Both the position numbers and the translations under genes were made by a program. Below, one piece after another: positions 3,761 to 46,380 of a stretch of 64,000 nt of DNA. Below the pieces are notes generated by a model that did no database searches, was not told the origin of the DNA, and was given only the letters and a program-made list of their open reading frames with translations. This DNA is from Armatimonadota bacterium. GTDB taxonomy: Bacteria; Armatimonadota; DTGP01; JAKQQT01. The stretch spans positions 1-64,000 of the forward strand of contig DASXVS010000042.1 of assembly GCA_036504095.1 (NCBI GenBank). The letters run 5' to 3'. Position 1 is the first letter of the stretch; each line of letters starts with the position of its first letter.

Positions 3761-4985
3761 TGTCCGATGTCAAGAGATCCTTTACAGTTTCTGACAACAG
3801 ATGGTTTACACCCGGGCCTCAGCGAGAGCGGCGATGCGGACGTTTGCGAAATAGATTGCATCATCGTGTAGTTCAGGGCGAATCTCCACCCATTCGTGGA
3901 TCAGACCTTTGCCAGCCCGGTAGAGATGGCCCTTGTAGGTAACAGTTCCATTCTGCTCGACCTTGCGGGTCACAGCGCCCTCTGGTATCACATGGGCCGG
4001 CAGCTTGTTTGGGCGTTGCTTGAAACTGCTTTCGTAGACGACCCCCGGAACGCGCATCCCCAACGCCTCGTGGGGCCGGACCCAGTTGTAGCCATATTGG
4101 TACTCGACGAGTATCCTCTGTGCCATCTCCACATTGGCCTGGTCTAGTTTGTCACCGAGTTCCAGTTTCAGGGTCTCGTGGAACCGTTCCACCTTTCCCT
4201 GCGTTTGCGGGTGGCGCACCCGACCGTGCAACGTGCGTATCCCCAGTAGCCACAGGTTCGCCTCGAAACGGGTGGGGCCCTTCGACTGCCAGTCGTTGAA
4301 CCCGTCCCCATTATCCGAAAGGATGCTGTCGGGCAAACCCACCTCGCCGAACAGGTTCCACAGCGCTTCGAACACCGTTTCCGTTGTCTTGTGCGGCAGT
4401 GCTGCAAGCAGCAACAGGAACCGCGAATGATCGTCCAAAACGCTCAACGGCCAGTAACGGTAACGCCGCGGCACCCCCTTGTAGTCCAATTGCCACAACT
4501 CGTTGCACCGATCACGCTCGAAGCGTTGGTCCCCTTGCGATAGTCTGACTTGACGGCCAACCAGGCCGTTGCGCTTCAGTATCCGGTCCACCGTTCGAAC
4601 GCACACGGGTGCCGTGGAATCACGCCACAACGTGACGTGCAACTTCTTCGCCCCCCACGCCCGGTGCTTCTCCTTCTCGGCCAGCACTATCTCCTCGACG
4701 CTCAAAGGCGATACACGAGCGATTGCGTGTGGCCGCCGCGAACGTTCCGTCAACTCGGCGATCCCTTCCTCCCGCGCTCGATTCACCCACAGATACGCCG
4801 TTGTACGGCTGACGCCAGACTGGCGGGCGGCTTCCGATACGCTGATGCCACCCTCCAGCACCAGGCTCGCCAATCGTTTCCGTGACTGCATAAGCGATTG
4901 CTCCTGAAATGGCATCCCACACCTCCCGAGCGAAGTGTAAAGGATGTCTTGTCAGAAACTGTCCACCATCTATTGTCATCAGACA
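3761..4985 (-). mobile_element. Complete IS481-family insertion sequence (1225 bp)
   Basis: Terminal inverted repeats are TGTCCGATGTCAAGAGATCC at 3761-3780 and, on the other strand at the left end, TGTCTGATGACAATAGATGG (4966-4985), matching at 16 of 20 positions. The 4-bp sequence CATT flanks both ends (3757-3760 and 4986-4989) and looks like the target duplication. The element encodes one transposase and no passenger gene. Removing it restores a CCCCC-agcatt-GGGGGG palindrome. Confidence 0.9.
3806..4915 (-). CDS. IS481-family transposase
   Basis: 369 residues, full length for IS481. The N-terminal helix-turn-helix (ISVSEAARQSGVSRTTAYLWVNRA, about residues 24-47) binds DNA ends. The rve-type DDE core follows: LWQLDYKG with the first Asp, VLDDHSR, SDNGDGFN with the second Asp, and GKVERFHETLK with the catalytic Glu. 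No frameshift is seen, so the copy may be active. It is the sole gene of the element at 3761-4985, and its C-terminus is identical to the partial copy at the window start. Confidence 0.95.
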   Translation of the reverse strand: MPFQEQSLMQSRKRLASLVLEGGISVSEAARQSGVSRTTAYLWVNRAREEGIAELTERSRRPHAIARVSPLSVEEIVLAEKEKHRAWGAKKLHVTLWRDSTAPVCVRTVDRILKRNGLVGRQVRLSQGDQRFERDRCNELWQLDYKGVPRRYRYWPLSVLDDHSRFLLLLAALPHKTTETVFEALWNLFGEVGLPDSILSDNGDGFNDWQSKGPTRFEANLWLLGIRTLHGRVRHPQTQGKVERFHETLKLELGDKLDQANVEMAQRILVEYQYGYNWVRPHEALGMRVPGVVYESSFKQRPNKLPAHVIPEGAVTRKVEQNGTVTYKGHLYRAGKGLIHEWVEIRPELHDDAIYFANVRIAALAEARV

Positions 4986-6213: not shown

Positions 6214-7569
6214 TCAGGAAAGCACCTTGACGTTGATCAACGCCGGGCCGCACTTCGTCGCTTGCAGCGCCAGGGCCAGCGCCCAGAGCTTGTCCGCGTG
6301 GGCCCCGTCCTTCACCGGCGCGTCATAGCACGGTATGCCGGACTCGCGCACGGTCCGGCGGAGCGATTGGATCTGGTCCATCAGGCTGCGGTTCCGCGGG
6401 ATGGTCAGCGTGCCGCGCTCCAGGTCCCGCTTCAGGGCGGACGCCATCCGCTCCTTGCCGGCGGCGGTGAAAGTCACGGGTACCACGCGTTCCGGGCACT
6501 GCGCCATGATGCGTTCGCCCAGCTCGCAGCCGATGCCGGTGGCGTCGATGCACGCCATCTTCACGCCCGGCACCGCCAGGCAATCCATGATCGCGTTTTC
6601 CTGCTGCTCAAAGGTGGCGTTGACCATCGTGCGGATGCAGCACACGGTATGGCGGTCGCGTTCCTCGCGGAGGACCACGATCTCGGTGGCGTTGGCCACG
6701 CGGCCCACGTCTACTCCCACGAACAGCCGGCCCGGAACGGCGGCCAGGGCCGCCCAGGTGCCGGCCAGCGGGATGTCGTTCGCGTTCGCCTCGATCAGCG
6801 GCCACGAGATGAACGCGTCGTTGCTGTCCACGAAGCGCAGTTCGTATTCCTGCTGGAACGCCTCCAGGTCCAGCGTCTCGCGGATCGCGATGAGGACGTC
6901 GGTGCCGTAGACGCCAACGCGGCGGTCCGTATCGGCGTCCGGGTCCTGCCGGGCCGCCTCGACGTCGTTGCACAGCCACGGGGCGTCCCACCATGGCACG
7001 ACGTGCTGGGAGTAGTGGGCGGCGATGAGCGGGTCAGACGTCACGCGGAAAAAGGCGCCGATGTCCCCGTTCGGGGTGGACGCGGCGGTGATGCGTCCTC
7101 CGTGGGTGATCACGGGGATCGCCCCGGTATACAGGCGCTGGGAGTTTGGGTAGAACGCCATCTCGTCCAGGTAGATGTTGGCGCCGGAGCGGCCCCGCGG
7201 CGAGCGGCAGGGAAACGAGAGGAGTCGCCCGCGGTTCGCGAAGCGTATCTCGCGGACGCCGGAGAGGGTAAGGCGCGGACGCATCCGCGCGGGCAGGCTT
7301 TCGTACAGGTCCATGGCGTAGAGGATCTTCTCCGCCGCCTCCTCGCGGTTGAGGCTCACGAAGATGCTGAAGCGCCCGTAAGCCACGGCCTCGGCCAGCG
7401 CCTCCAGCGCGAACAGCCAGGAGAACCCCGTCTGCCGGGCCTTCAGAACGGCGCGGAACCGGCTGCGGTCCGCCAGAAAACGCTGCTGATAGTCGGTGAG
7501 TGTGTACCCGGACGAACGGACGGCGGACGCGATCACCTCGTCCGCCGTCAAGCCGTTACGCTTCGCCAT
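6214..7569 (-). CDS. Stand-alone phage terminase large-subunit-like (Mu gp28-type) protein
   Basis: 451 residues. The ATPase half has a Walker A-like KARQTGFSW (about residue 38), Walker B IYLDEMAF (about 133) and the coupling motif ITAASTPNG. The RNase H-like nuclease half shows acidic residues in FVGVDVGR, MACIDATGIG and GAHADKLWALALA. This layout is that of headful packaging terminases, closest in style to Mu gp28. No portal, capsid, protease or tail gene is nearby, which is unusual. The ATG follows GGAGG at the end of the right leader copy (7577-7626). The frame is intact, so it may be a retained remnant or part of a small mobile module. Confidence 0.8.
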   Translation of the reverse strand: MAKRNGLTADEVIASAVRSSGYTLTDYQQRFLADRSRFRAVLKARQTGFSWLFALEALAEAVAYGRFSIFVSLNREEAAEKILYAMDLYESLPARMRPRLTLSGVREIRFANRGRLLSFPCRSPRGRSGANIYLDEMAFYPNSQRLYTGAIPVITHGGRITAASTPNGDIGAFFRVTSDPLIAAHYSQHVVPWWDAPWLCNDVEAARQDPDADTDRRVGVYGTDVLIAIRETLDLEAFQQEYELRFVDSNDAFISWPLIEANANDIPLAGTWAALAAVPGRLFVGVDVGRVANATEIVVLREERDRHTVCCIRTMVNATFEQQENAIMDCLAVPGVKMACIDATGIGCELGERIMAQCPERVVPVTFTAAGKERMASALKRDLERGTLTIPRNRSLMDQIQSLRRTVRESGIPCYDAPVKDGAHADKLWALALALQATKCGPALINVKVLS

Positions 7570-11066: not shown

Positions 11067-13643
11067 ATGGGGTTCGTGGAACACGCCCCCAAACTCACCC
11101 CGATGATGGCGCAGTACAACGCCGTCAAGGCCCAGTACCCGGACGCCCTCGTGATGATGCGCATGGGCGATTTCTACGAGATGATCGGCGAGGACGCCGA
11201 GCGTGCAGCGCCGGTCCTCGAGATCACGCTGACGAGCCGCCCTGTCTCCAAGAGCGACCGCGTCCCCCTCTGCGGCGTGCCCTACCACGCAGCCGATCGC
11301 TATATCGCGAAACTCATCGCCGCCGGTTTCCGGGTGGCTATCGCCGACCAGTTGGAGGATCCCAAGAAGGCGAAGGGCATCGTCAAACGCGGCGTTACGA
11401 GGGTCGTCACGCCCGGCACGGTGGTCGAGGACTCGCTGCTCCCCGGCAAGGCCAACAATTTCCTCGTGGCGGTCGCACAGGGCGGCGACAACTTCGGGCT
11501 GGCCGTGGCCGATGTCAGCACCGGGGAGTTCGCCGTGACGGAACTGCGCGGCTCCGATCCGCGCAGGGCTCTGCTGGACGAACTGACACGGCTCCAGCCG
11601 GCGGAAACGCTGCTCCTGCACGATTTCCTGATCGAGGAGGACGTGAGGGCGGTCGTGAAGGGCCGCCTGGAGGCCTTCGAATCGAAAGCCGACATCCGCT
11701 CGCCGCACCAGATCCTGTGCGAGCATTTCGGCGTCGCCAGCCTGCGCGGGTTCGGCTGCGAAGACCTGCCGCTGGCCCAGCAGGCGGCTGTGGCCGTGCT
11801 GGACTACCTGGAGGGCAACCACCTCTCCGCAAAGCACCACCTGAACGGCCTCTCGACCTACAGCACGGACCACTTCCTGTTCCTGGACGCCACCGCCCGC
11901 CGCAACCTGGAGCTCACCAGCACGCAGTGGACCGCCACCGGCGCCAGCCTGCTCCAGACGCTGGATCGGACCGCCACGCCGGGCGGCGTCCGCCTGCTGC
12001 GCCAGTGGATCGAGCACCCGCTTCTGGACGTGGATACGATCCACGCGCGCCAGGACGCCGTCGCCGAGTTCCACGCCTCCACGATCCTCCGCCACGATGC
12101 CGGCGCCGCGCTGAAAGGCATCGCGGACCTCCCGCGCCTCGTCAGCCGCGCCGCCACGGGCGCGTCCAACCCGCGCGATATGGCAGCCATGAACGCCTCT
12201 CTGGAACGCATTCCGGAGTTGGCCAGAGCGCTTACATCGTGCGAGTCGTCGCTCCTGGTGGTGCTTCGCGAGGCGCTGGACCCGTGCGACGACCTGCGGA
12301 GCCTCTTGAGCGCGGCCATCGTGGACGATCCGCCGCTCAAGATGCAGGACGGCGGGTACATCCGCGCCGGCTTCAATGCCGACCTCGACCACCTGCGCGA
12401 TCTGGCCGCCAACGGCCGCCAGTACATCGCGAACCTGGAGGCGCAGGAGCGCGAGCGGACGGGCATCAAGACGCTCAAGATCGGCTACAACAGCGTATTT
12501 GGTTACTACCTGGAGGTCTCTCGCTCGCAGGTTAACGGCGTGCCGGACGACTGGATCCGCAAGCAGACCACGGCGAACGGCGAGCGCTACGTGACGCCGC
12601 AGTTGAAGGAGTTCGAGCACGAGGTCCTCGGAGCGGACGAGAGGATTTCGGCGCTGGAGTCGGAGCTATTCAAGGCGGTCCGGGACGCGGTGGCGGACCA
12701 GTCGGTACGGCTGCTCGCCCTTGCCGCTGCGCTGGCCCAGGTGGACGCGCTGCTCGGGTTGGCGAAGGCCGCCGTTGAGAACCGCTACACGCGGCCGGAG
12801 GTCAACGCGGACGACGCCATCCGGATAACGGCCGGCCGGCACCCGGTGGTGGAGCGGTCGCAGTCCGACGCGTTTATCCCCAACGACTGCGTGCTGAACA
12901 GCGAGGAACGCCTCATTGTCCTCACCGGACCTAACATGAGCGGCAAGAGCACGTGGCTGCGGCAGGTCGCTCTCATCGTGCTGATGGCGCAGATGGGGTC
13001 GTTCGTGCCGGCGGACAGCGCGACGATCGGCGTGGTGGACCGCATCTTCACCCGCATCGGCGCTCATGACGACCTTTCGAGCGGACAAAGCACGTTCATG
13101 GTCGAGATGACCGAGACTGCCAACATTCTGTCCAACGCCACGGAGCGCAGCCTCGTCATCCTGGACGAGATCGGGCGTGGAACGAGCACTTACGACGGCC
13201 TGAGCATCGCCTGGGCGGTGGTGGAGCACCTCGCCGGCGTTGGGTGCAAAACCCTGTTCGCAACCCACTACCACCACCTGAACGACCTGGAGAAGCAGCA
13301 GGATGGCATCCGCAACTACCGCATCGCCGTTCGGGAGGACGGCCACCGCATCCTCTGGCTCCGCAAGATCATCCGCGGCGGCACGGACAAGAGCTACGGC
13401 ATCCAGGTCGCGCGCCTGGCCGGCCTGCCGGACACAGTCATCGCCCGCGCCACCGAGGTGCTGGACCAACTGGAAGGCGACGGCAACCCGCCGGCGAAGG
13501 TAGACAAGGTGGAGCACTTGCAGTTGACGCTCTTTGACGCCCAGCAGACGCCTATGGAGAAGGAACTGAAGGCCCTGGACGTGAACGTCCTCAGCCCCAT
13601 CGAAGCGCTGAACCTCCTGCACAAGTGGAAGGGGGAGAGGTAG
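11067..13643 (+). CDS. mutS: DNA mismatch repair protein MutS
   Basis: 858 residues, the usual MutS1 length. The mismatch-binding start reads LTPMMAQYNAVKAQYPDALV then MRMGDFYEMIGEDA, with the Phe-x-Glu wedge. Connector and core domains follow, with the clamp region around ERERTGIKTLKIGYNSVFGYYLEVS. The ATPase has Walker A TGPNMSGKSTWLRQ, signature SSGQSTFMVEMTE, Walker B LVILDEIGRGTSTYDG and the ATHYHHL switch. It ends in the conserved tetramerisation motif ALDVNVLSPIEALNLLHKWK. It recognises mismatches with MutL, which is not in this window. Three shortened copies of its 3' end occur downstream (14940, 16228, 18600). Confidence 0.98.
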   Translation: MGFVEHAPKLTPMMAQYNAVKAQYPDALVMMRMGDFYEMIGEDAERAAPVLEITLTSRPVSKSDRVPLCGVPYHAADRYIAKLIAAGFRVAIADQLEDPKKAKGIVKRGVTRVVTPGTVVEDSLLPGKANNFLVAVAQGGDNFGLAVADVSTGEFAVTELRGSDPRRALLDELTRLQPAETLLLHDFLIEEDVRAVVKGRLEAFESKADIRSPHQILCEHFGVASLRGFGCEDLPLAQQAAVAVLDYLEGNHLSAKHHLNGLSTYSTDHFLFLDATARRNLELTSTQWTATGASLLQTLDRTATPGGVRLLRQWIEHPLLDVDTIHARQDAVAEFHASTILRHDAGAALKGIADLPRLVSRAATGASNPRDMAAMNASLERIPELARALTSCESSLLVVLREALDPCDDLRSLLSAAIVDDPPLKMQDGGYIRAGFNADLDHLRDLAANGRQYIANLEAQERERTGIKTLKIGYNSVFGYYLEVSRSQVNGVPDDWIRKQTTANGERYVTPQLKEFEHEVLGADERISALESELFKAVRDAVADQSVRLLALAAALAQVDALLGLAKAAVENRYTRPEVNADDAIRITAGRHPVVERSQSDAFIPNDCVLNSEERLIVLTGPNMSGKSTWLRQVALIVLMAQMGSFVPADSATIGVVDRIFTRIGAHDDLSSGQSTFMVEMTETANILSNATERSLVILDEIGRGTSTYDGLSIAWAVVEHLAGVGCKTLFATHYHHLNDLEKQQDGIRNYRIAVREDGHRILWLRKIIRGGTDKSYGIQVARLAGLPDTVIARATEVLDQLEGDGNPPAKVDKVEHLQLTLFDAQQTPMEKELKALDVNVLSPIEALNLLHKWKGER

Positions 13644-13646
13644 CAC

Positions 13647-13729
13647 CATGGTAATTCTGAAAGGTTTCTTTCAGGATGCCCCAAGTTTTGAAAAGATTCC
13701 CGCGTATTCTTTCAGAATGCGCTACCATG
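13647..13729 (+). promoter_or_regulatory. Nested inverted repeats upstream of the Fic gene
   Basis: CTGAAAggtttcTTTCAG at 13657-13674 is a compact inverted repeat. CATGGTA-n3-CTGAAAG (13647-13663) mirrors CTTTCAG-n7-TACCATG (13709-13729). The CTTTCAG motif thus appears three times between mutS and the Fic start. This may be an operator bound by the winged helix of the Fic protein, or the inner hairpin may end mutS transcripts. No consensus promoter was assigned. Confidence 0.45.
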
Positions 13730-13763
13730 CAAGCGGCGGCATTGTCGCGGAAGGGAATCCCCA

Positions 13764-14912
13764 GTGAACCCAACTGAGTTTCACAGCACAGAAGCTGGTA
13801 CAGTGACTCTCACTCGCGAGGGTTACCATGCCTTTCTGCCAGCCCCCCTGCCACCAAAGCTCCGTTACGATGACGCCCTCGTGCTAGCGCTGTCCAAAGC
13901 GGACACTGCACTGAGCGAACTTGCGGGTGTCGGACGAACTCTGCCAAATCCCCACCTTTTCATCATGCCCTACGTTCTCCGCGAGGCGGTTCTCTCCACT
14001 CGCATCGAGGGAACGCAAGCCGGGGTTTCCGACTTCCTGCTTGATGAGGTGGGGGAAAAGACTTCCACACAGCCGGCAGACAGGCAGGAGGTACAAAACT
14101 ACATTCAGGCGATGGAGTATGGATGCAAGCGCCTAAGCGATCTGCCGCTCTCCAGGCGACTGGTATGCGAGATACACGCGCATCTGCTAAATGGCGTACG
14201 CGGAAAACACAGCACACCGGGCGAAGTTCGTCGATCACAAAACTGGATTGGAGGCACATCACCGGCTGACGCGGTTTACGTTCCTCCGCCAATCTACGAA
14301 ATGGACAATGCTCTCACCCTTTGGGAATCGTACCTGCACGAACGTGACAAGTATCCACCACTTATCCAGTGCGCGCTGATGCACGAGCACTTCGAGTCGA
14401 TACATCCGTTCCTCGATGGCAACGGACGCATTGGCCGCCTCCTGATCACGTTGTTCCTGATCGAGCGAGGCCGGCTGACTCGACCGATGCTTTATCTGTC
14501 TGCTTACATCGAGGCTACAAAGGGCCAGTATTACGATTGTCTGCAGCGCATCCGCACTCATGGCGACTGGCGATCGTGGTTGCTCTACTTCCTTGGAGGC
14601 GTGACGCAGGCCGCAGCCGATGCCGCACGCCAGGCCGGCCATCTTATGGACCTGTGGCGGGACTACGAGTACAGGCTACGTAACGAGCCCAGGGCCCATG
14701 TCTTGCTCCCACCTCTCTTCGCCAACCCTTATATGACAGTTGCCCGTGCTGAGAAGATTCTGCGGGTATCGACGCCAACCGCTAGAAAAGCTGTACTCGC
14801 GCTGGAAGCACATGGCATGCTCGAAAACGTTCCTCAAAGCCCCTGGCGCAGGTTGTACATGGCGCGTCCGATTCTCGATTCGTTCGAGCCAGCAGAGGTG
14901 TCTGGAGCCTGA
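13764..14912 (+). CDS. Fic/DOC-family protein with C-terminal winged helix
   Basis: 382 residues, GTG start. The catalytic Fic motif is HPFLDGNGRIGR at about residue 215, complete with His and the anion-binding loop. An N-terminal inhibitory helix STRIEGTQ (about residue 78) is the S/T-x-x-x-E/G motif that blocks ATP binding in class II Fic enzymes, so activity is self-restrained. The last 60 residues (VARAEKILRVSTPTARKAVLALEAHGML) form a helix-turn-helix domain, common in free-standing Fic proteins. It would transfer AMP or a related nucleotide to a protein target, which is unknown. It lies between mutS and the first extra copy of the mutS tail. Confidence 0.92.
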   Translation: MNPTEFHSTEAGTVTLTREGYHAFLPAPLPPKLRYDDALVLALSKADTALSELAGVGRTLPNPHLFIMPYVLREAVLSTRIEGTQAGVSDFLLDEVGEKTSTQPADRQEVQNYIQAMEYGCKRLSDLPLSRRLVCEIHAHLLNGVRGKHSTPGEVRRSQNWIGGTSPADAVYVPPPIYEMDNALTLWESYLHERDKYPPLIQCALMHEHFESIHPFLDGNGRIGRLLITLFLIERGRLTRPMLYLSAYIEATKGQYYDCLQRIRTHGDWRSWLLYFLGGVTQAAADAARQAGHLMDLWRDYEYRLRNEPRAHVLLPPLFANPYMTVARAEKILRVSTPTARKAVLALEAHGMLENVPQSPWRRLYMARPILDSFEPAEVSGA

Positions 14913-14939
14913 TCAGGGGTCTCCTTGCGCCACACTGTG

Positions 14940-15068
14940 ATGCACTCGTTGGGGGCCGCGGAGTCGCCGATGGAGAAAGAACTCGAAGCGCTGGACGTTA
15001 ACGTACTATCGCCCCCCGAAGCGCTGAACCTCTTGTACCAATGGAAAGGCGAGGATGGTAAACGATGA
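14940..15068 (+). CDS. Micro-ORF: duplicated MutS C-terminal tail, copy 1
   Basis: A 42-residue frame reads ESPMEKELEALDVNVLS then PPEALNLLYQWKGEDGKR, aligning without gaps to the last 30 residues of MutS. Compared with mutS over 28 codons, about ten differences are silent and four change the residue. That suggests selection on the peptide, or origin from a diverged full mutS. The TGA overlaps the next start as ATGA, so translation of the following secreted protein is probably coupled. No separate ribosome binding site is obvious. Confidence 0.6.
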   Translation: MHSLGAAESPMEKELEALDVNVLSPPEALNLLYQWKGEDGKR

Positions 15069-16207
15069 TCATGAAACTGAACTCACTGACTCTGGTTGTC
15101 CTCAGTGCCGCGATTATGGGATGCGTGCCCGCTGCGCGCGCGATGGACAGGCCCACGAAGCCGAAGGAGACCAAGCAAATGCGCCGAGGATTCACGATCC
15201 CCAGGGTCTGGGTGCGCCGGGGCCTCGTGCTGCCGCGGCAGGAAGGGGAAGGCAACAGCGTCAGCGGCGATCCGTGCATCGTCTGGGACGAGGCCATCAA
15301 CGGATGGCGGATGGTCCTGTTTCACGATCCTCCCGGCCATGCGCAGGCCGTCTGCTTGAATCGCGATGACCTTGGCCCCGGAAACTGGAAACTCGAGGGT
15401 CCCCTGCCGGTGGCGAATCCGGAGGCGGTGGGCGGTTTCCACAAGCCGTTCTTCGTGATGGACCCGGACCACCCCAACCAGGCGGCGAAGATCGACGGCC
15501 GCTATTGCCTGCTGGTCGTCAGCTTCAAAGACGGGCACAAACAGGTCCAGCGAGCGTGGTCCGAGAAGCTCGCCGGGCCGTGGACGTTCGAACGCGAGGC
15601 CATCATCCCGACAGGCGCCGGGGATGCGTTCGATGCAAAGCACACGGACGCGGTCACTGGCTACTATTTCCCCAAGCGCAAGGAGTTCCTTTACTTCTAC
15701 ATGGGATATCCGGCCAAAGCGCAGCCGAGGAAGATCAGCCCGTACGGCTCGGCACAGGCCGTCGCCACGCAGAAGCTAGGCGACAAGGTGGCGACGAAGC
15801 GCGGCGTGATCCTCGCGCCTTCCCAGCAAACCGGGCATTGGGCTTCGGGCTGGGTTGGCGGCCTCCAGTTGCTGCGTGGAGCGCAGCACCGCTGGGTAGC
15901 CGTCGTCAACGCGTCGCCCACCGCGCCCGATCCCGGCAACAAGGCTGAGTGGAACGAGGAACCCGCACCGAGCCTGGGCGGCTTCGCCTGGTGCGATGAG
16001 GAATGGCCGGTGAAAGGCTGGCACTTTGCTCCGGCGCCCATCGAGTGGGTCAAAGACATTCCCAGGGATGCGCTTGATGCCGGCGAAGGATACAACCTGT
16101 GGCGGCAGTTCATCCACGTCTTGCCAGACGGGCGGGCCGCCCTTTTCTACAACAGCGGCTATTACGGTCGCGAGCAATTGTACATGAAGTTGAGTCAGAG
16201 GCCGTGA
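15065..16207 (+). CDS. Secreted beta-propeller glycosidase-like protein
   Basis: 380 residues with an N-terminal export signal (KLNSLTLVVLSAAIMGC), whose IMGC could be a lipobox. The body shows GDPCIVWDEAINGWRMVLFH, AGPWTFEREAIIPTG, DAKHTDAVTGYYFPKRKEFL and LFYNSGYYGREQLYMK. These spaced Asp- and Trp-rich blades are typical of five-bladed propeller enzymes of the GH43/GH32/GH130 type. I could not assign catalytic residues or a family. Its start overlaps copy 1 of the MutS-tail frame by ATGA. Its signal peptide resembles that of the gene at 16377, suggesting a shared 5' cassette. Confidence 0.65.
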   Translation: MIMKLNSLTLVVLSAAIMGCVPAARAMDRPTKPKETKQMRRGFTIPRVWVRRGLVLPRQEGEGNSVSGDPCIVWDEAINGWRMVLFHDPPGHAQAVCLNRDDLGPGNWKLEGPLPVANPEAVGGFHKPFFVMDPDHPNQAAKIDGRYCLLVVSFKDGHKQVQRAWSEKLAGPWTFEREAIIPTGAGDAFDAKHTDAVTGYYFPKRKEFLYFYMGYPAKAQPRKISPYGSAQAVATQKLGDKVATKRGVILAPSQQTGHWASGWVGGLQLLRGAQHRWVAVVNASPTAPDPGNKAEWNEEPAPSLGGFAWCDEEWPVKGWHFAPAPIEWVKDIPRDALDAGEGYNLWRQFIHVLPDGRAALFYNSGYYGREQLYMKLSQRP

Positions 16208-16227
16208 CCGGTACGCCCCGGGCCGGT

Positions 16228-16380
16228 GTGCAAAACGCGGAGCATATGCTGCAGATCTTTTTCGAAGCCGTCGAATCGCCGATGGAAAGAGTACTGAAAG
16301 CCCTGGACGTGAACGTCCTGAGCCTCACTGAGACGCTGAAACTGCTGCACAAATGGAATCGCGAGGCGGGTAAACGATGA
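16228..16380 (+). CDS. Micro-ORF: duplicated MutS C-terminal tail, copy 2
   Basis: A GTG-started frame of 50 residues (an inner ATG is at 16246) contains EHMLQIFFEAVESPME then RVLKALDVNVLSLTETLKLL and HKWNREAGKR. Homology to MutS reaches about 20 residues further upstream than in copy 1, covering EHLQLTLFDAQQTPME of MutS. It ends in the same AGKR-TGA/ATGA overlap with the next gene as copy 1. Confidence 0.6.
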   Translation: MQNAEHMLQIFFEAVESPMERVLKALDVNVLSLTETLKLLHKWNREAGKR

Positions 16381-18584
16381 TCAAACTGAACTCACGCACC
16401 CTGGTCGTGCTCTGCGCCGCGAGCATCGGATGCGCGCCGGCATTGGCCGGCGCCTGGCCGTTCCAGCCGGCGGCGGATACGTTCGATCCGAATGCCCTCC
16501 TGGATCTGCACTCGCTGAATGAGAAGACCGCCGGGCAGTCCGGCTTCGTCCGCCGGAGCCCGGACGGGCACGGATTCGTCCTGGGCAACGGAAAACCCGT
16601 CCGTTTCTGGGCGGTCACGGATTATGTCCAGCGCCTCCCCGGCGCGACGGACCTCGAACACCACGCCCGGTGGCTAGCGAAGCGTGGCGTGAACATGGTG
16701 CGCTTCCACGGGCAGCTAACACCCAAGGGCGAAGCCACGAAGATCACGGACGCCAACCGCGAGGAGATAGACCAGTGCTGGAAGCTCGTGGCCGCCATGA
16801 GGAAGCACGGCATTTACACCACCATCTCCCCGTACTGGGCTTTCGGCTACGGCAACATCCCGGCGTCCTGGGGCGTGCCGGGCGATGCGGGCCAGAGCCC
16901 GGCCGCCCTTCTCTTCTGGGACAAGACTCTCCAGAACGGCTACAAAGCGTGGATGCGGGCGCTCCTCTCACCCCCCAACCCCTACACCGGCATCCCGCTT
17001 GCGAAGGACCCGGCCGCGGCCATCATCCAGCTCCAGAACGAGGACAGCATGCTGTTCTGGACGATGCAGGGCGTGAAGGGGGAACAACTCCGCGCCATCG
17101 AGCGGCGGTTCGGAGAGTGGTTGGCCCGACGGTACGGCTCCCTGGAAGCGGCGAAATCCGCGTGGGGCAGCGCCACCCATCCGGACGATGACGCGGCGGA
17201 CCGTCGCGCCGGCCTGTTCATCGTGTGGGAGTTCACGCAGCCGCAGCAGGGCGGCAAGGCGAAGCGCCTCGCGGACCAGCTCCATTTCTACGCCGACACA
17301 ATGCGGACTTTTGACTCCGAGATGGCGCGCTTCCTGCGTCAGGACCTCGGCTGCCGGCAGCTCATCAACGCCGGGAACTGGAAGACGGCGGACGACGTGA
17401 AGCTCAATGATGTCGAGCGGTACGTCTACACCCAAAACGACGTCATCGCCGTCAACCGGTACTTCGGCGGCATCCACATCGGCCCGCACGACGGCTGGGC
17501 GGTCGAGGTGGGCGATCACTTCACGAACGCGTCTGCTCTGCTAAGGCCGCTGGAGATGCCGATGAACCTGAAACAGGTGGTCGGCTATCCGAGCCTCATC
17601 ACGGAGAGCGAGTGGGTGGCGCCATCTCTCTACCAGTCGGAAGGCCCCTTCCTTACCGCCGCGTACCAGTCGCTAACCGGGGTGGACGCGTTTTACTGGT
17701 TCAGCGATGGAGACAGCGCGGAGTGGCGGCAGCCGGATGGACCCTGGGCGGTGAAATGGGCGATCAACACGCCGATGCAGCTCGGTCAGTTCCCGGCGGC
17801 GGCGCTGCTGTACCGCAAAGGGTATCTGAAGCGGGGGGCAACGACGGTCCACGAGGAACGCGCGCTGGAGGACCTCTGGCAGCGGCGAACCCCGATCATC
17901 GCGGAGGCCAGCGGGTTTGATCCGAACCGGGACGCGGGCGACATCGCGCCGCGATCCGGCGTCAGAACCGGCGTGGACGCGCTCGCGTTTCTGGTCGGGC
18001 CTGTTGAAGTGACGTACGGGGGTGACCCGGCGAAGAGCCGGGTGATCGATCTGAAGCCGTATATCAGGAAGGACCGAAAGACCGTGGTCAGCGATACCGG
18101 GGAGATCCGGTTGAACTACGGAGTCGGGCTTTGCGTGCTGAATGCGCCCCGCGCCCAGGGCGCAGCGGGTTTCCTTCGCAAGGCGGGGCCGATCGGCCTT
18201 TCGGACGTGCGGATCACCTCGGGCAATGAGTACGCCAGTATGCTTGCCGTATCCATGGACGGTAAACCCCTCCGCTCATCCGGCCGGGTGCTGGTGCAAG
18301 TGGGGACCACCGCGCGGCCCGCAGGCTGGGAAGACCGCGAAGCCGACTTCTCCAGTACCGACGGCAAGACGGCCTACCATGGCCGCCAGGTCGTCGCCTT
18401 CGGCCATCCACCCTACGAGATCGAGCAAACCGACATCACTTTCACCCTGAGGAATCCACGGATAAAGGACGTCGTCGTGCTCGACGCTAACGGGAACGCG
18501 GCCGGAGATGTGCCGACGGTGCGGCACGGCGCCAAAATCACCGTCAAGCTCCCAGCCAACGCGATGTACGTGGTCTTGCGCTGA
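16377..18584 (+). CDS. Secreted TIM-barrel glycoside hydrolase (GH5/GH39-like clan)
   Basis: 735 residues with signal peptide KLNSRTLVVLCAASIGCAPA. The barrel starts at GHGFVLGNGKPVRFWAVTDY and LAKRGVNMVRFHGQL. A probable acid/base Glu lies in IIQLQNEDSMLFW, and a probable nucleophile Glu in PSLITESEWVAPS. Both sit at clan A strand ends. After the barrel come beta-sandwich segments (ALAFLVGPVEVTYGG and onward). The family cannot be fixed by eye. The start is coupled by ATGA to copy 2 of the MutS-tail frame. It probably acts outside the cytoplasm on a plant or algal polysaccharide. Confidence 0.75.
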   Translation: MIKLNSRTLVVLCAASIGCAPALAGAWPFQPAADTFDPNALLDLHSLNEKTAGQSGFVRRSPDGHGFVLGNGKPVRFWAVTDYVQRLPGATDLEHHARWLAKRGVNMVRFHGQLTPKGEATKITDANREEIDQCWKLVAAMRKHGIYTTISPYWAFGYGNIPASWGVPGDAGQSPAALLFWDKTLQNGYKAWMRALLSPPNPYTGIPLAKDPAAAIIQLQNEDSMLFWTMQGVKGEQLRAIERRFGEWLARRYGSLEAAKSAWGSATHPDDDAADRRAGLFIVWEFTQPQQGGKAKRLADQLHFYADTMRTFDSEMARFLRQDLGCRQLINAGNWKTADDVKLNDVERYVYTQNDVIAVNRYFGGIHIGPHDGWAVEVGDHFTNASALLRPLEMPMNLKQVVGYPSLITESEWVAPSLYQSEGPFLTAAYQSLTGVDAFYWFSDGDSAEWRQPDGPWAVKWAINTPMQLGQFPAAALLYRKGYLKRGATTVHEERALEDLWQRRTPIIAEASGFDPNRDAGDIAPRSGVRTGVDALAFLVGPVEVTYGGDPAKSRVIDLKPYIRKDRKTVVSDTGEIRLNYGVGLCVLNAPRAQGAAGFLRKAGPIGLSDVRITSGNEYASMLAVSMDGKPLRSSGRVLVQVGTTARPAGWEDREADFSSTDGKTAYHGRQVVAFGHPPYEIEQTDITFTLRNPRIKDVVVLDANGNAAGDVPTVRHGAKITVKLPANAMYVVLR

Positions 18585-18599
18585 GACACCCGAGAACCG

Positions 18600-18690
18600 A
18601 TGGACGGGCAAATAAGGTGCTCGGAGGTGAACTGCCGAGCCGCATCGAGGCTCTGAACCTGCTGCACGAGTGGAAGAATGGGAGAGCTGT
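18600..18690 (+). pseudogene. Degenerate MutS C-terminal tail, copy 3
   Basis: CCGATGGA at 18597 begins a stretch aligning to the mutS 3' end. The frame is shifted, but LPSRIEALNLLHEWKNGR is still readable at about 18630-18684. It lies between the glycosidase stop and the toxin-antitoxin operator, the third recurrence of this 3' end after mutS. Confidence 0.55.
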
Positions 18691-18778: not shown

Positions 18779-19030
18779 ATGTCAACCATGACGTGCCGGC
18801 AGCTGAGGACGGATCTCGCGGACACACTCAATCGTGTGGCATATGCGGGTGAGCGTTTCGTTATCGAGCGCCATGGGAAGCCGGTGGCGGCCATCGTGTC
18901 CGTAGAGGACCTTGCCGAGATAGAAGCGCGGGAGGATGCAGAGGATATCGCGGATCTGAGAGCTTCCATCGCCGAAACGCAGGAAGTGGGCACCGTGCCA
19001 TTTCGTGGCCTGCTTGCCTCGAAACCCTAG
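18779..19030 (+). CDS. Phd/YefM-family antitoxin
   Basis: 83 residues, with AGGAGG six bases before the ATG. The N-terminal DNA-binding fold is clear: CRQLRTDLADTLNRVAYAGERFVIERHGKPVAAIVSVEDL. It is followed by an acidic helix (EIEAREDAEDIADLRASI) that would wrap the toxin, and the usual GTVPF end. The partner toxin overlaps its 3' end by 26 bases. Confidence 0.9.
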   Translation: MSTMTCRQLRTDLADTLNRVAYAGERFVIERHGKPVAAIVSVEDLAEIEAREDAEDIADLRASIAETQEVGTVPFRGLLASKP

Positions 19031-19244
19031 CCATTCCCTGCCGCGTGCGATGCAGGAGCGGCTTGAACCCCATATCCTGGCAATTGAGGGAGACCCTCGA
19101 CCTCACGGATGCCGAAAGCTCTCCGCGCCGCTTGAAGGGTACCGGATTTGGGGGGGCGACTACCGGGTCGTCTATCAGGTAGATGATGCCGCACGCATCG
19201 TGTTCATCCACAAGATCGCCCCGCGTGACGGCGTTTGCACGTGA
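19005..19244 (+). CDS. RelE/ParE-family toxin, N-terminally short
   Basis: 79 residues from a GTG within the antitoxin gene. The conserved core is present: LPRAMQERLEPHI, DPRPHGCRKLSAPLEGYRIW, GGDYRVVYQVDDAARIVFIH and the end KIAPRDGV. The first strand and part of the first helix seen in ParE/RelE (about 15-20 residues, normally before LPR) are replaced by unrelated residues. The toxin may therefore be weakened or inactive. Arg residues of the RxGDYR-type core are retained. Confidence 0.75.
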   Translation: MACLPRNPSHSLPRAMQERLEPHILAIEGDPRPHGCRKLSAPLEGYRIWGGDYRVVYQVDDAARIVFIHKIAPRDGVCT

Positions 19245-39728: not shown

Positions 39729-39983
39729 TTAGCCCAACCTAGCCCGCCCTCGTAGCACGCTTCCATCACCGCCCCGTGGATCCGTCGTGGTCACCGGGTC
39801 GCCGCCCACGTAGCCGTAGAGGTTGATGCCGCCGGCGTATCCGATGGGATCACGGGTTACGAACCGGCCCGCGGCTGGGTCGTAGTAGCGGTGCGTCATC
39901 AGCACGAGGCCCGTCCCGGCGTCTGTGTAGGCGCCCCACTGACCCTGGTAGCCGAAAACCTCGCTGGTGGCCGAACCGCTCAC
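39729..39983 (-). CDS. RHS cassette 10: terminal core fragment with minimal tip
   Basis: 84 residues: GYQGQWGAYTDAGTGLVLMT then HRYYDPAAGRFVTRDPIGYA and GGDPVTTTDPRG, ending after only 12 more residues (GDGSVLRGRARLG). No toxin domain and no immunity gene follow, so this is either the end of the original RHS gene or a cassette that lost its tip. It differs slightly from the other cores (RFV for RWL). Confidence 0.65.
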   Translation of the reverse strand: MSGSATSEVFGYQGQWGAYTDAGTGLVLMTHRYYDPAAGRFVTRDPIGYAGGINLYGYVGGDPVTTTDPRGGDGSVLRGRARLG

Positions 39984-40049
39984 TCGCCTTGATCCAACTG
40001 CTGTATTCCCAATTTTCCGCCCACACGCCGGAATACAGAGAGGCGAACG

Positions 40050-40517
40050 CTACTCTATATCATCAAGCGGGCGGAGCGCTAGTTTGGTCTTCCAGAACGT
40101 ATAAGCTGAGTTGATCTCGTCTTCAGACAGTGAGAAGCCGGGCAATCTCCTCGCCATTTCCAACCAAGCTAAGATAGCGACAACTTGTCGCCTGTCGAAC
40201 AGCTCGAGCCTCTCCAACGTCCTGCTTTGTATTGAAGGATCGTCACCCCAAGGCTGTATGCTCCAGAGCACCTCGTCGCCCCCTGCGTTATCGACCGGGT
40301 CCGGTGTGTGGTAGGTCACCAAGTCCTTGAGTATCCAAGGTAGAGTGAATTGGTACTCATCATCCGACATGTCCCAAATATGGAAGCGCATTTCAGCCAA
40401 GTAGTCGTGATTGTGCACATGCTGTTCGAGACTCTTGTGCGAGGGTGCTACGATATCAAATGCACTGTCCAGAATTTGCCAGACCTTTTCCCACCCGGGT
40501 GGAATGTCTTCAGACAT
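40050..40517 (-). CDS. RHS cassette 9: candidate immunity protein (DUF6714-like)
   Basis: 155 residues, acidic, soluble. DEYQFTLPWILKDLVTYHTP and LELFDRRQVVAILAWLEMAR resemble the DUF6714 pattern of a yYLPayl segment and a C-terminal FtpeQ-like helix. It directly follows the tip at 40573-40992, the position expected of an immunity gene. Neither the pairing nor the family was tested. Confidence 0.5.
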   Translation of the reverse strand: MSEDIPPGWEKVWQILDSAFDIVAPSHKSLEQHVHNHDYLAEMRFHIWDMSDDEYQFTLPWILKDLVTYHTPDPVDNAGGDEVLWSIQPWGDDPSIQSRTLERLELFDRRQVVAILAWLEMARRLPGFSLSEDEINSAYTFWKTKLALRPLDDIE

Positions 40518-40572
40518 TGATTACCCTTTCGATATGAAGGTACGAGTAAAAGCCCTTTCGGAAATAGCTCAT

Positions 40573-40992
40573 TTAGTGCGCACCCTGAGGCGCCAGCACG
40601 CGCGCAGCTCCAGCTGCCGCGGCCTCCCATGCGGCGAGCGAGGCATCCGCAGCGCGCATCAACGCGCCGCCCCCAACTAGTATCAGCATCTTACCCGAGT
40701 CATCATGGATCGCCTCATTGGGGTCTGGCAGTTCCCACTTCTTAGCCACCCACTTCTGTGCCTCTTTACATGGTGCAGGAGGCTGTCCCTTACAACGTGC
40801 ATAATAGGTGGCAAGATTCGCTATTAGCGCCGCACGCAGGCCGACTAGCTCCAGATAATGGGACCAAGGTTTGGTGATCCTTATCACACCGTTAACGCGG
40901 TATTCCTGCCCGCCGAAATAGTCGGCCTTTGGGTCGTATTTGGCATCCTTTGTTTCCAGCTTGGCGATCAGTCGATAGATCTTGGCCAGCAA
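40573..40992 (-). CDS. RHS cassette 9: C-terminal tip, separated from its core by a stop
   Basis: About 139 residues (LLAKIYRLIAKLETKDAKYD then YFGGQEYRVNGVIRITKPWS, ARCKGQPPAPCKEAQKWVA). It is in frame with the RHS core upstream, but a TAA at 41017-41019 lies between core and tip, after GLAAQS. Unless the stop is bypassed, the tip cannot be made as an RHS fusion. The toxin type is not recognised. Confidence 0.55.
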   Translation of the reverse strand: MLAKIYRLIAKLETKDAKYDPKADYFGGQEYRVNGVIRITKPWSHYLELVGLRAALIANLATYYARCKGQPPAPCKEAQKWVAKKWELPDPNEAIHDDSGKMLILVGGGALMRAADASLAAWEAAAAGAARVLAPQGAH

Positions 40993-41016
40993 GTCCCCAC
41001 ACTCACCGCTCGACAG

Positions 41017-41190
41017 TTATGACTGCGCCGCCAGTCCCCACGAATCGCTTCCGTTCACCGGGTCCCCGCCCACGTAGCCGTACAGGTTCACCCCGCCGTT
41101 ATAGCCGATGGGATCACGCGTCAGCCAGCGGCCGGTGGCGGGATCGTAGTAGCGGTGGCCGCAGAGCACCAGGCCGGTTTCCTAGGGTCT
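41017..41190 (-). pseudogene. RHS cassette 9: core fragment ending in TAA
   Basis: Frame reads ETGLVLCGHRYYDPATGRWL then TRDPIGYNGGVNLYGYVGG, DPVNGSDSWGLAAQS and TAA. Upstream a TAG stands immediately before the core, so there is no start codon. Bases 41191-41296 show no gene. Confidence 0.7.
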
Positions 41191-41296
41191 TGTGGTAAAC
41201 CGCCTGGATACTACAGAGGTTGAGACTCCCTTGGAACGGGCTTATGCTAGATTGGCATTTTATAGCCCTATGCACAAAATGCAGCCTCTTCAAGAT

Positions 41297-42151
41297 TCAT
41301 TCGATCGCATCCGGATTGGGCGGTGACGCCAGAGTTTGCTGGAGCGCGATGATGAGCTCTTTTTCAAGGGGTATTTCGTCCCCGTCAATCTGATCCAAGA
41401 GGTATACCTTGTCATCGGGATTATCTTGACGATAACCCAAAGCGTAACGAGAAATGTCATCCTCCGCTACGATAAGGTATAGGCCGTCTGGTTGAACGAC
41501 GCTTCGTACCCGTGTACCGAAAAACCTCCATTGGCCGCAACGAAAGCCATTGGTCTCGCGAAGGAGAGCAGAATAGTCAGCAGGAATCGGGCGCGTAAAA
41601 CGTGCAGAGAGCTCATCGAAGTCACTTTCAGAGGCCGGTCCGGCTATTCCCGTTGGAGGTAGTGCAAACCCAAGCTGGGACAGATCCGAACTCGGGGGCA
41701 CGGGTGTTGTACTCCTGTCGATCGATTCTGCACGGATTTGTGACATGTCGACAAGAACAGATGCTGTACAGGTGATGGCCGCTCCCCTCAGTCGACTTGG
41801 TGACCTTGAGAACTCAAGTGAGGAGATTCGACCATTTGCCGCAACAACATCACATCGCAAAGGTGGAACGCCTGGTGATTTTACCTGCACGCGAGCAAAT
41901 GCGACCTCACTTCGTTGATCAAAGAACAGAGGAAGATGCTCACGTGAGGTTCGCGTGAAGCCCATAATGACCATTCTATCCTTCGCGCTGCGACTCAAAG
42001 TGTCGATTAGGAGGACTTGGGACTCCAGAATGGAGCCAGCCGTGCCCATCGACGATCTTGCGGCATTCAGGACGCTCGTTTCATAATCTCTCAACGATGC
42101 GCTGCCGAACCGTACCTTCCGCCAAAGTCGGTCAACAAATTCATTCAGCAT
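41297..42151 (-). CDS. RHS cassette 8: SUKH (SMI1/KNR4)-like immunity protein
   Basis: 284 residues. The C-terminal 120 residues follow the SUKH pattern: SESDFDELSARFTRPIPADY, SALLRETNGFRCGQWRFFG, and YLIVAEDDISRYALGYRQDN. SUKH proteins are a large immunity superfamily for polymorphic toxins. The N-terminal half is of unknown type. The gene lies 16 bases after the tip at 42168. Confidence 0.75.
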   Translation of the reverse strand: MLNEFVDRLWRKVRFGSASLRDYETSVLNAARSSMGTAGSILESQVLLIDTLSRSAKDRMVIMGFTRTSREHLPLFFDQRSEVAFARVQVKSPGVPPLRCDVVAANGRISSLEFSRSPSRLRGAAITCTASVLVDMSQIRAESIDRSTTPVPPSSDLSQLGFALPPTGIAGPASESDFDELSARFTRPIPADYSALLRETNGFRCGQWRFFGTRVRSVVQPDGLYLIVAEDDISRYALGYRQDNPDDKVYLLDQIDGDEIPLEKELIIALQQTLASPPNPDAIE

Positions 42152-42167
42152 GGATTACTGGCTCTGA

Positions 42168-42722
42168 TCATCGGTTTGCCACATTTTCAGCACCACCCCA
42201 CCCTGCTCCAGCCGCACTCCCGTATATCAGGCGCGGTACTCTATCGATCTGCTGCAGGATTGGATGCCATTTGCTTCCCAGCTCACGGCAACCCTTCGGG
42301 TACCTATACGCGTCGTGTAGGAAGTGCCTAGCAGGTGTTACGAAGTTGCCGTTCAGTTTTGATCTCCCGAGGCCCTTTACGCATCGTGGTGCCCGCGCTA
42401 GAATCTTCTTCACAATGCGATTCGGTACCCAATGTGAGAACTCCTTACACGCCTGCTTGGCGCCGGCCGCTTTGAGCCCACCCGCTACCCCAAAGGCAGC
42501 CGAGTGAACGAAGCCTGTGGCCTCGCCTCCTCGGTACCACCCGGAGTCGGTGTTCACAGCCTCGTTCGCGTCCCCAACACCCAGCACCTCCCCAACGTAC
42601 TTTCTAGCGATCTTTGTACCGCCCAGGGTCAACGTGTCGCCCCAACCTGCGATGAAATTGGCAGCGTTGTCCAGCCCATCTAGCCCGCTTGGGTCGCTCC
42701 AGTTCACCGGGTTCCCGCCCAC
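42168..42722 (-). CDS. RHS cassette 8: core end and tip
   Basis: The frame is open to 42884 and upstream encodes QAQWGAYTNYYTDQETGYIL and the standard core, but has no start codon after the TGA at 42885-42887. A GTG at 42722 allows a shorter product. The tip has DNAANFIAGWGDTLTLGGTK then GEVLGVGDANEAVNTDSGWYRGG, a common RHS pre-toxin region. The basic end FSHWVPNRIVKKILARAPRC may be a nuclease-type toxin. Identity is not certain. Confidence 0.6.
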   Translation of the reverse strand: MGGNPVNWSDPSGLDGLDNAANFIAGWGDTLTLGGTKIARKYVGEVLGVGDANEAVNTDSGWYRGGEATGFVHSAAFGVAGGLKAAGAKQACKEFSHWVPNRIVKKILARAPRCVKGLGRSKLNGNFVTPARHFLHDAYRYPKGCRELGSKWHPILQQIDRVPRLIYGSAAGAGWGGAENVANR

Positions 42723-42962
42723 GTAGCCATACAGGTTGATACCGCCGGCGTAACCGATAGGGTCCCGCGTCAGCCACCGACCCGTAGCGGGATCGTAGTA
42801 GCGGTGACCGCAGAGGATGTAGCCCGTTTCCTGGTCGGTGTAGTAGTTCGTGTAAGCGCCCCACTGAGCCTGGTAGCTACCCGATCACTGGGCCGGCGTG
42901 CCTACGGTGTGAAACAAGCGACCAAACAGGCTGTATACTTGCCCTCAGGCATCTGATGACAA

Positions 42963-43397
42963 TCATAAGCAGGGTAGTGCAGCCAACCAGTCAATGCCGA
43001 TGACGGAACATACTGACCGCAAGCACTCTACGTTCCACTCAAGCACAGCGTGCCAATCTTCGAAGCACGGGCTTACGACGAAGCCCACTTTGTCTTCAAA
43101 CTCATCCACCGTCATCCTTGCTCCAATGAATGACCGAATATTATCGACCAGTTCAGATAGCCGCATTCTGGAACTGCCCTTTAAGTCCCCTTCCGTAAAT
43201 AGCCAAACTGGATCGATTCTGAGTAAGGAGCACAGCTTGGATACTTCGGCGAGAGAAAGGCAAGTCTCCAGTTCATCGTCGAAAGTCTCCAGATCGTAAT
43301 ACGATGGCACACTAATCCCAAGTGCGGCTGCGACTTCCCTTTCGGTCTTGCCCGACAGCTCACGAGCTAGTTTTAGCTTACTTCCGAGGGAGCCCAT
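42963..43397 (-). CDS. RHS cassette 7: helix-turn-helix (XRE-like) candidate immunity protein
   Basis: 144 residues. SKLKLARELSGKTEREVAAALGISVPSYYDLE is a lambda-repressor-type helix-turn-helix. The C-terminal half is acidic (VDNIRSFIGARMTVDEFEDK and WHAVLEWNVECLRSVCSVIG). It lies downstream of the tip at 43545, the immunity position. It may be an HTH-containing immunity protein or a regulator carried with the cassette. Confidence 0.6.
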   Translation of the reverse strand: MGSLGSKLKLARELSGKTEREVAAALGISVPSYYDLETFDDELETCLSLAEVSKLCSLLRIDPVWLFTEGDLKGSSRMRLSELVDNIRSFIGARMTVDEFEDKVGFVVSPCFEDWHAVLEWNVECLRSVCSVIGIDWLAALPCL

Positions 43398-43544
43398 TTA
43401 TACCTCCAAGTGCCGTCAGATCCGTCGGCATATGCGTTGCGCTTTGCCTCGGGCAACCGCGGGTCACCGCATGAGGCACCCTGATCTGCGACCCCCATAT
43501 GTCAGTCCGCTAGGTAGAGCATTCTGACACGTATTCAACGGGCG

Positions 43545-43964
43545 TCACGCCTTAGTATTTGGTCGTTTTCCGCCAGCCTTGTAGTATGTTTCTGGGAACC
43601 AAATACAACTGAGATCGAACGTTGAACCAAACGTAGCGATGATTTCGGTAACCACTGCCCTAAAGACAGGGACTCGCGGCTTGGGCCAAGGGTCATCGGC
43701 AGATTGGTCATTTTTGGGAGGCCGTTTCTGGTTAGGCCACGGCTTCTTCGCGTTCGGCGGATATCTCCCTCCCTTATCGCAGTCGTAGTGATCCCAGTGG
43801 CCGTTGTCTTCCGGGTGCGGATACCATTTGGCACGTGATTTGGGATTCTGGCAATAATCTCCTCGTGAATCTGAACCCGTTGGCCAATTGCGATTCCAGC
43901 CCGGCGGACGCCTGCCCGGCTTCGGAAGATACGGATCCAGTCCGCTCGGATCGATCCCGTTCAC
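43545..43964 (-). CDS. RHS cassette 7: core end and tip with His/Asp-rich motif
   Basis: The frame is open from 44159 and upstream encodes LPWAGTVTATNTDSETGYIL and the core, but has no start codon. It begins directly after the stop of the cassette 6 immunity gene. The tip includes SRAKWYPHPEDNGHWDHYDC, resembling the His-Asp-rich terminal domains of some polymorphic nuclease toxins. It ends in a short hydrophobic stretch (AVVTEIIATFGSTFDLSC). The toxin activity is inferred. Confidence 0.6.
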   Translation of the reverse strand: MNGIDPSGLDPYLPKPGRRPPGWNRNWPTGSDSRGDYCQNPKSRAKWYPHPEDNGHWDHYDCDKGGRYPPNAKKPWPNQKRPPKNDQSADDPWPKPRVPVFRAVVTEIIATFGSTFDLSCIWFPETYYKAGGKRPNTKA

Positions 43965-44154
43965 AGGGTCGCCGCCGACGTAGCCGTACAGGTTGATCCC
44001 GCCGTGGTAGCCGATGGGGTCCCGGGTCAGCCACCGGCCCGTAGCGGGATCGTAGTAGGGGTGGCCGCAAAGGATGTAGCCCGTCTCGCTGTCCGTGTTC
44101 GTCGCCGTTACCGTGCCCGCCCATGGGAGCTGCCCAAATCGGTCGGGACCTTCG

Positions 44155-44547
44155 TTACCTCATGCGAAAGAACCTCGGCAAAATGACTGCAATCCCGATC
44201 ATATATATAACCCACGTGGCGCCTGATGATGCGAGCGTCGAACGTGGTGTGCGCTGGCACGCGAGCAACGCCGTCGCCGCCATCGCCCATACAATGGCGA
44301 ATCCGTAATAGAACGGGCGCGAAACGATGAACCGCCGGTCGGATTGGGGTGTTTCTACCTGAGAGCTCTCACGCCGATTGGAGAGGACATATGCGCGCAT
44401 AACGTAGACGTCCCAGACCGCCACGATCAAGAGCACTATTGGAAGGACTACTGCGCCCGACACACCAGCGGTGATCGCGACACTAAACCCCAGCATGGCC
44501 ACCAGCCCGCCCACAATCCACAACTTTACTGCATCAGATCTCAGCAT
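44155..44547 (-). CDS. RHS cassette 6: small membrane protein, candidate immunity
   Basis: 130 residues with four predicted membrane helices (LWIVGGLVAMLGFSVAITAG, VVLPIVLLIVAVWDVYV, YYGFAIVWAMAATALLAC, ATWVIYMIGIAVILP). It follows the cassette 6 tip by 40 bases. A membrane immunity protein would suit a toxin acting at the inner membrane or periplasm; no family was recognised. Confidence 0.55.
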   Translation of the reverse strand: MLRSDAVKLWIVGGLVAMLGFSVAITAGVSGAVVLPIVLLIVAVWDVYVMRAYVLSNRRESSQVETPQSDRRFIVSRPFYYGFAIVWAMAATALLACQRTPRSTLASSGATWVIYMIGIAVILPRFFRMR

Positions 44548-44587
44548 CAGCTACGCCTTACCCTCGATTGGCCGAGCACTTCGCCAA

Positions 44588-45133: not shown

Positions 45134-45274
45134 CGGGTCGCCGCCAACGTACCCGTACAGGTTGATGCCGCCGTTGTAGCCGATGGGATCGCGGGTAAGC
45201 CAGCGGGCGGTTGCGGGGTCGTAGTAGCGATGGCCTTGCAGGCGTTCGTGGTTACAGCGACTTCGCTCCGTTTT

Positions 45275-45847: not shown

Positions 45848-45852
45848 ACGTG

Positions 45853-46329: not shown

Positions 46330-46380
46330 ATACCCGTATAGGTTGATACCGCCCTGGTAGCCGATGGGATCGCGGGAACT

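Follow-up and report, generated by a model that had tools for sequence, protein, structure and literature searches.

The locus analysed here raises the question of why the 3' end of mutS recurs behind the complete gene and how the genes standing between these recurrences came to be there. The window, i.e. the whole stretch of 64,000 nucleotides that was analysed (contig DASXVS010000042.1 of an Armatimonadota bacterium, forward strand), contains a complete mutS and, all downstream of it, three copies of its tail comprising the last 30-57 codons, which are designated c1, c2 and c3 (Table 1). The array has the layout of a series in which displaced 3' ends of a single gene upstream are each followed by a cargo of their own. 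The copies are probably former mutS 3' ends, displaced in at least three imports of a related mutS end together with a cargo gene.

Table 1 Positions of mutS, the copies of its 3' end and the associated genes in the window
Feature	Position	Strand	Evidence
mutS, complete, parent gene of the array, 858 aa	11067..13643	+	Pfam MutS I-V, E down to 9e-85
Present 3' terminus of mutS, used as reference; clamp-like motif QLTLF + ALDVNVLSPIEALNLLHKWK	13481..13643	+	Alignments; 47.7 bits vs MutS-tail HMM
Cargo 1, Fic/Fic_N protein, 382 aa, HPFLDGNGR motif	13764..14912	+	Pfam Fic_N 2.7e-25, Fic 5e-20
c1 (copy 1), probable displaced mutS end, open frame (ORF 14925-15068)	14955..15068	+	Alignments; 41.4 bits vs MutS-tail HMM
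Shared unit, first copy: mutS end + start site + signal peptide	14955..15132	+	75% identity to 16267-16441
Cargo 2, 380-aa protein with signal peptide	15065..16207	+	No Pfam or NCBIfam match
c2 (copy 2), probable displaced mutS end, about 57 codons, open, eroded at conserved sites	16209..16380	+	Alignments; 20.6 bits vs MutS-tail HMM
Shared unit, second copy: mutS end + start site + signal peptide	16267..16441	+	Alignment with 14955-15132
Cargo 3, 735-aa secreted protein	16377..18584	+	No Pfam or NCBIfam match
c3 (copy 3), frameshifted, probable displaced mutS end	18597..18686	+	75% over 92 columns, E 1e-8; 20.1 bits vs MutS-tail HMM
Phd/YefM antitoxin + ParE-like toxin pair behind c3	18779..19244	+	Pfam 1e-13 and 1.8e-4 (latter just below cutoff)

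Copies of the mutS 3' end and the genes between them

The first-pass annotation, made from the letters alone, had reported three recurrences of the mutS 3' end, and all of them were recovered at or near where it had placed them. The scores obtained by local alignment were 51 for c1 (mutS 13539-13637 vs 14955-15053), 61 for c2 (mutS 13481-13661 vs 16209-16390) and 38 for c3 (mutS 13551-13639 vs 18597-18686), respectively, while the best score among 400 random stretches of the window was 18 and none of the 400 reached the score of any copy. By these controls, together with E values of 1e-8 to 1e-18 for the copies in blastn within the contig, chance similarity was ruled out, and the similarity noticed at first pass thus stands above controls. 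A dispersed repeat was also ruled out, since no other strong copy of the mutS end was found in the same genome outside the array. Homology to mutS begins at differing points in the copies (13481, 13539 and 13551), and no identical core common to all four mutS ends was found in the alignments beyond a few nucleotides. The right junctions vary between the cases described in this report, and decay obscures the actual joint.

A gap of 2-43 nt separates each copy from the stop codon of the cargo gene ahead of it. c2 reaches back far enough to cross the beta-clamp-like motif, which is damaged in c2 and absent from c1, and the conserved Pro and Ala positions of the C-terminal motif have been lost from c2; c3, described as degenerate at first pass, does require changes of frame for its alignment. 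The naming of the tail as the MutS tetramerisation motif was overstated, the tail carrying QLTLF and a conserved C-terminal motif. The stop codons of c1 and c2 each overlap the start of the next gene as ATGA, and the sequence GAGG lies about 10 nt ahead of that start in both tail ends. Furthermore, the repeat shared by c1 and c2 extends past the mutS stop codon, through the ATGA overlap and about 22 codons of a signal peptide (178 nt in all, at 75%).

The inserts are small (1.2-2.3 kb) and consist mostly of a single gene. The GC3 value of the Fic gene is 0.62 vs 0.90 for mutS. Between mutS and the Fic gene, at 13647-13729, lies an imperfect palindrome, CATGGTA-ATTCTGAAAG ... CTTTCAGAAT-GCGC-TACCATG, which perhaps represents, judging by its sequence, a Fic operator or terminator. 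For cargo 2, a homologue was found in one of 60 relatives (G023, 59%), and it is without the signal peptide of cargo 2, which is encoded at 15065-15140 and carries a lipobox-like ..AAIMGC. Because the only homologue found is without that signal peptide, the cargo 2 protein may have become exported by fusion to the mutS-end unit. The best homologues of cargo 3 occur in other families of the phylum, the top one (G005, 63%) having a different signal peptide, and the cargo genes behind c1 and c2 do not match each other despite their common signal peptide. The Phd/ParE pair is followed by a GH43 gene (19305), for which possession of the c1/c2 signal peptide was ruled out by alignment.

No recombinase was recognised by Pfam/NCBIfam among the gene products identified from mutS to the GH43 gene. 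On the other side of mutS, an IS481-like transposase gene is located at 3806-4915. Two further features were observed on that side: a gene for a terminase-like large subunit (Terminase_6N/6C) on the minus strand at 6214-7569, which is a possible prophage remnant, and an intergenic CCCTCACCCC..GAGGGAGAGG repeat in two copies (425-572 and 955-1103, 87% identical), which is also present in another contig (C48).

Decay and past constraint of the copies

Likeness to MutS was estimated with an HMM built from the MutS ends of fifteen relatives, for which the leave-one-out range was 43.5-64.2 bits. The scores (Table 1) fall with the distance from mutS, which fits each new event at mutS pushing the older ends away. 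The tails also differ in length: the present mutS has the shorter end (..WKGER), while c1 and c2 both end in ..GKR and the mutS of a relative of the same family (G001) in ..TKG. Standing beside the ATGA start, the ..GKR ends of c1 and c2 resemble the longer end of the G001 mutS, unlike the present mutS of the window.

Over the 28 codons from the Met to the Lys of WK, the alignment of mutS with c1 bore out the earlier count of about ten silent and four amino-acid changes. The dN/dS test proposed at first pass was carried out by the Nei-Gojobori method over 33 codons and gave 0.17 (mutS-c1), 0.23 (mutS-c2) and 0.25 (c1-c2), respectively, with dS values of 0.8-1.0. In the pairs of mutS with a copy, the mutS branch is itself constrained, and only the changes specific to c1 and those between c1 and c2 test the copies; the changes on the c1 branch (P = 0.02) and those of the c1-c2 pair (P = 0.018) were both short of replacements. 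The constraint tests, including that for G605 described below, comprise only 17-33 codons and assume simple neutral models. The first-pass annotation had left a choice between selection on the peptide and descent from full mutS copies; the signal on which it relied is real, and the low dN/dS of the copies is explained by the time that each end spent inside a working mutS.

Probable displaced ends in other genomes and behind clpB

The polarity of such an event can be followed in a genome of Planctomycetota (G291, locus L130), in which a second mutS end lies 1.1 kb downstream of mutS. A gene for a secreted phosphodiesterase-like protein stands directly after mutS, and the second mutS end forms its C-terminus in frame. 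The empty site is preserved in the close relatives G553 and G501, in which mutS adjoins the gene that follows the second end in G291; the flank matches, and the G291 copy abuts this ancestral flank. Changes specific to G291 relative to G553 and G501 amount to 9 of 93 nt in the mutS end vs 37 of 1407 nt upstream (P = 0.0015), and the codon changes of the G291 mutS end vs G553 are 10 silent and 1 replacement. At the same 9 sites, the copy has the state of the relatives at 5 and that of the G291 mutS at 2, and it shows 7 changes of its own. The working mutS end of G291 is therefore likely an import and the copy the old end, now decaying, as judged from the confinement of the excess, mostly silent changes to the mutS end and from the copy being nearer to the state of the relatives. 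No recombinase or integrase was found in the insert by Pfam/NCBIfam. Joining of one end by homology, with the import detectable in the resident gene, was shown in G291 only.

A second case in Planctomycetota (G605, L217 2856-4432) has the order mutS - Fic - mutS end. Along 17 aligned codons, all 5 of the 5 differences between mutS and the copy are silent, with no replacement (neutral P 0.0005-0.0026), and no integrase was found in the insert. The relative G304 has no Fic gene at that place. The Fic proteins of the window and G605 are distant, with 56 identical residues among 213 aligned. Just ahead of the mutS-end copy of G605, repeats of AACGTGGTAATAA were observed.

In the genome of the window itself, about 0.92 Mb (about a fifth of the genome, 579 frames) was scanned for the same layout. 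The last 19 codons of clpB (L201 4822-8223, corresponding to 44822-48223 of contig C45) are found again about 0.7 kb further downstream, beyond a DUF6883/DUF4926 pair and a terminator-like hairpin, with 78% identity over 65 nt, of which the middle 29 nt are nearly identical. No integrase was found in this insert. As clpB shows the same layout, mutS is not the sole anchor.

A profile search at E <= 0.05 found the MutS end in 256 of 291 Armatimonadota genomes, four hits being obtained only in the genome of the window. Ten others gave 2-3 hits, which is fewer than the approximately 15 false hits expected at that cut-off; in the one inspected (G193), a near-identical end on a second contig was an assembly or strain variant. 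By this search, tail copies as a general trait of Armatimonadota were ruled out. The family relative G001, the closest one compared, is without the gene order of the window. The first-pass annotation had proposed that copies be looked for in related genomes, and they were absent from the other Armatimonadota examined. Outside the phylum, the second hit of G606 (Planctomycetota) was rejected as a contig-edge variant and that of G654 as a lone MutS-end frame at the end of a contig (C88, L233), behind a transporter-like frame and unlinked to the mutS contig. In the phylum of L145 (called Acidobacteriota), second hits were mostly second long frames, with one at a contig edge, and none was verified as a displaced end. 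Displaced mutS ends behind mutS are rare: of about 850 genomes from three phyla in which a MutS end was detectable, three had a verified adjacent case (the window, G291 and G605).

Proposed serial displacement, its alternatives and known systems

The copies, their decay order and their past constraint are directly seen in the window; the empty site, the insertion and the changes confined to the mutS end are directly seen in another phylum. An event of displacement would begin with homologous recombination of the resident mutS with a related incoming mutS end (left joint), by which the incoming end would complete mutS and the cargo gene would follow it. The right joint would fall within the last 20-57 codons of the resident gene, and the old end would remain behind the new cargo, beside its former neighbour. 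Repetition would lead to mutS - Fic - c1 - gene 15065 - c2 - gene 16377 - c3, from youngest to oldest, and a displaced end, no longer serving MutS, would decay. Before decay, such an end would keep the Shine-Dalgarno-like GAGG and the ATGA overlap and may couple the translation of the cargo. The joining reaction would in all cases be homology-facilitated illegitimate recombination, and the donors would presumably be congeners. From the decay order, the constraint and the layout, we infer that the polarity of G291, with the old end behind the cargo and the new end on mutS, holds in the window too. The model needs donors which already carried cargo behind mutS, and the signal peptide common to c1 and c2 with unmatched cargo needs an extra fusion step. 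The suggestion made at first pass that repeated insertions had left the mutS-end copies was essentially right; it was worded as duplication, and displacement fits better, given the polarity in G291.

The main rival is that the copies are what is left of site-specific integrative elements (a prophage, a satellite or an island) whose attB lay in the mutS 3' end. Like e14 at icd, each element would have brought a mutS end of its own as attP, and it would later have lost all but one cargo gene. Replacement of a tail with mostly silent differences is the exact signature of e14 and icdC, and integrase-bearing elements are known in the mutS 5' end in hundreds of Proteobacteria (PMC5296598). However, this reading is unlikely, being weakened by the absence of an integrase from four insert sets (between mutS and the GH43 gene, and in the G291, G605 and clpB inserts), by the variable homology starts with no identical core in all four ends, and by the size of the inserts, mostly with one gene; moreover, neither the 50,697 phage records nor the 72,556 plasmid records contained a match to the mutS end. 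Plain duplication is quite improbable. In that case, insertion of the cargo would have generated an intragenomic copy of the resident mutS end, in the form of a long target-site duplication or a tandem repeat, with no import on the mutS side. Direct repeats flanking an insert would look alike, and the decay of c2 and c3 is indeed like that of free copies, but the replacements between the copies and mutS, and among the copies, are too few for free drift, and the excess of changes in G291 lies on the working mutS end, not just on the copy. Both observations would be unexpected if the extra copy had arisen in place and drifted.

The first-pass annotation had also suggested a functional micropeptide able to bind MutS. 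Selected micro-ORFs, with c1 and c2 translated as short MutS-binding tail peptides or as coupled leaders for the cargo, would agree with the open frames of c1 and c2, their ATGA overlap with the next start and dN/dS values of about 0.2. Such a function is most improbable in view of the eroded conserved sites of c2, the absence of the clamp motif from c1, the frameshift in c3, the fall of MutS-likeness with distance, the absence of the copies from the other Armatimonadota examined, and the fusion of the G291 copy to another protein as its C-terminus. A role of c1 and c2 in translation coupling is possible as a by-product.

Displacement at mutS, as the preferred reading, suggests that housekeeping genes can anchor the acquisition of one gene at a time without an integrase, and that the ends left behind constitute a readable, ordered record of acquisition events. 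A scan of the last 45 codons of every gene against its downstream DNA would reveal such ends in any genome and measure the rate of acquisition. It is conceivable, if rather doubtful, that genes repeatedly land at the mutS 3' end one at a time, each brought in without an integrase by an accompanying mutS end that serves as the homologous handle, and that import at mutS may favour itself. The last point follows from MutS normally blocking recombination between diverged sequences; hypothetically, damage to mutS could open a cell to diverged DNA and at the same time make a new mutS end advantageous to it. Denamur et al. are said to have reported in 2000 that mismatch-repair genes are often transferred. 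The kinds of cargo recur, Fic genes and secreted enzymes each occurring in two phyla, and this recurrence may be due to chance.

Several known systems resemble parts of this array. In the mutS-rpoS region of E. coli, variable, horizontally acquired genes adjoin mutS (PMC4209514, PMC7232297); unlike in the window, displaced mutS ends are not mentioned in the titles and abstracts of these reports. In Vibrio splendidus 12B01 and others, mobile elements are located in the mutS 5' end with an orphaned mutS piece on the other side (PMC5296598), so that here too mutS has been invaded repeatedly and a gene piece left behind, but those elements concern the 5' end and involve an integrase, excision and an effect on the mutation rate, whereas the window concerns the 3' end, with no integrase. 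In E. coli K-12, icd receives a new 3' end from e14 and the old end, icdC (165 bp), is left at the far side of the insert, icd and icdC differing by 10 silent and 2 replacement changes (PMC11148124, PMC4759930). The inserts of the window are likewise flanked by the new end of the gene and its displaced old end, with mostly silent differences; in contrast, the prophage e14 bears an integrase and has an 11-bp core, and the inserts of the window are single genes in three serial rounds, with neither an integrase nor a common core.

The orphan ends of Rhs, CDI and T6SS loci are alike in that incoming modules serially displace the 3' end of a gene, so that old ends and cargo accumulate as an array; for the displaced ends of T6SS effectors, homology-facilitated illegitimate recombination has been proposed (PMC5361080). 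The displaced gene of the window is instead a repair gene, mutS, and its cargo consists of Fic and two secreted proteins, rather than an effector C-terminus with an immunity gene. An array of the former kind was observed in the window itself, 26 kb away on the minus strand (39759-52148), where about 10 copies of an RHS-core end, 76-88% identical and 1.1-1.7 kb apart, precede a different C-terminus or small gene in each case, as an orphan array without a full-length rhs in front. Displaced ends have thus been known for prophage sites and toxin genes; here they are serial and stand behind a core repair gene.
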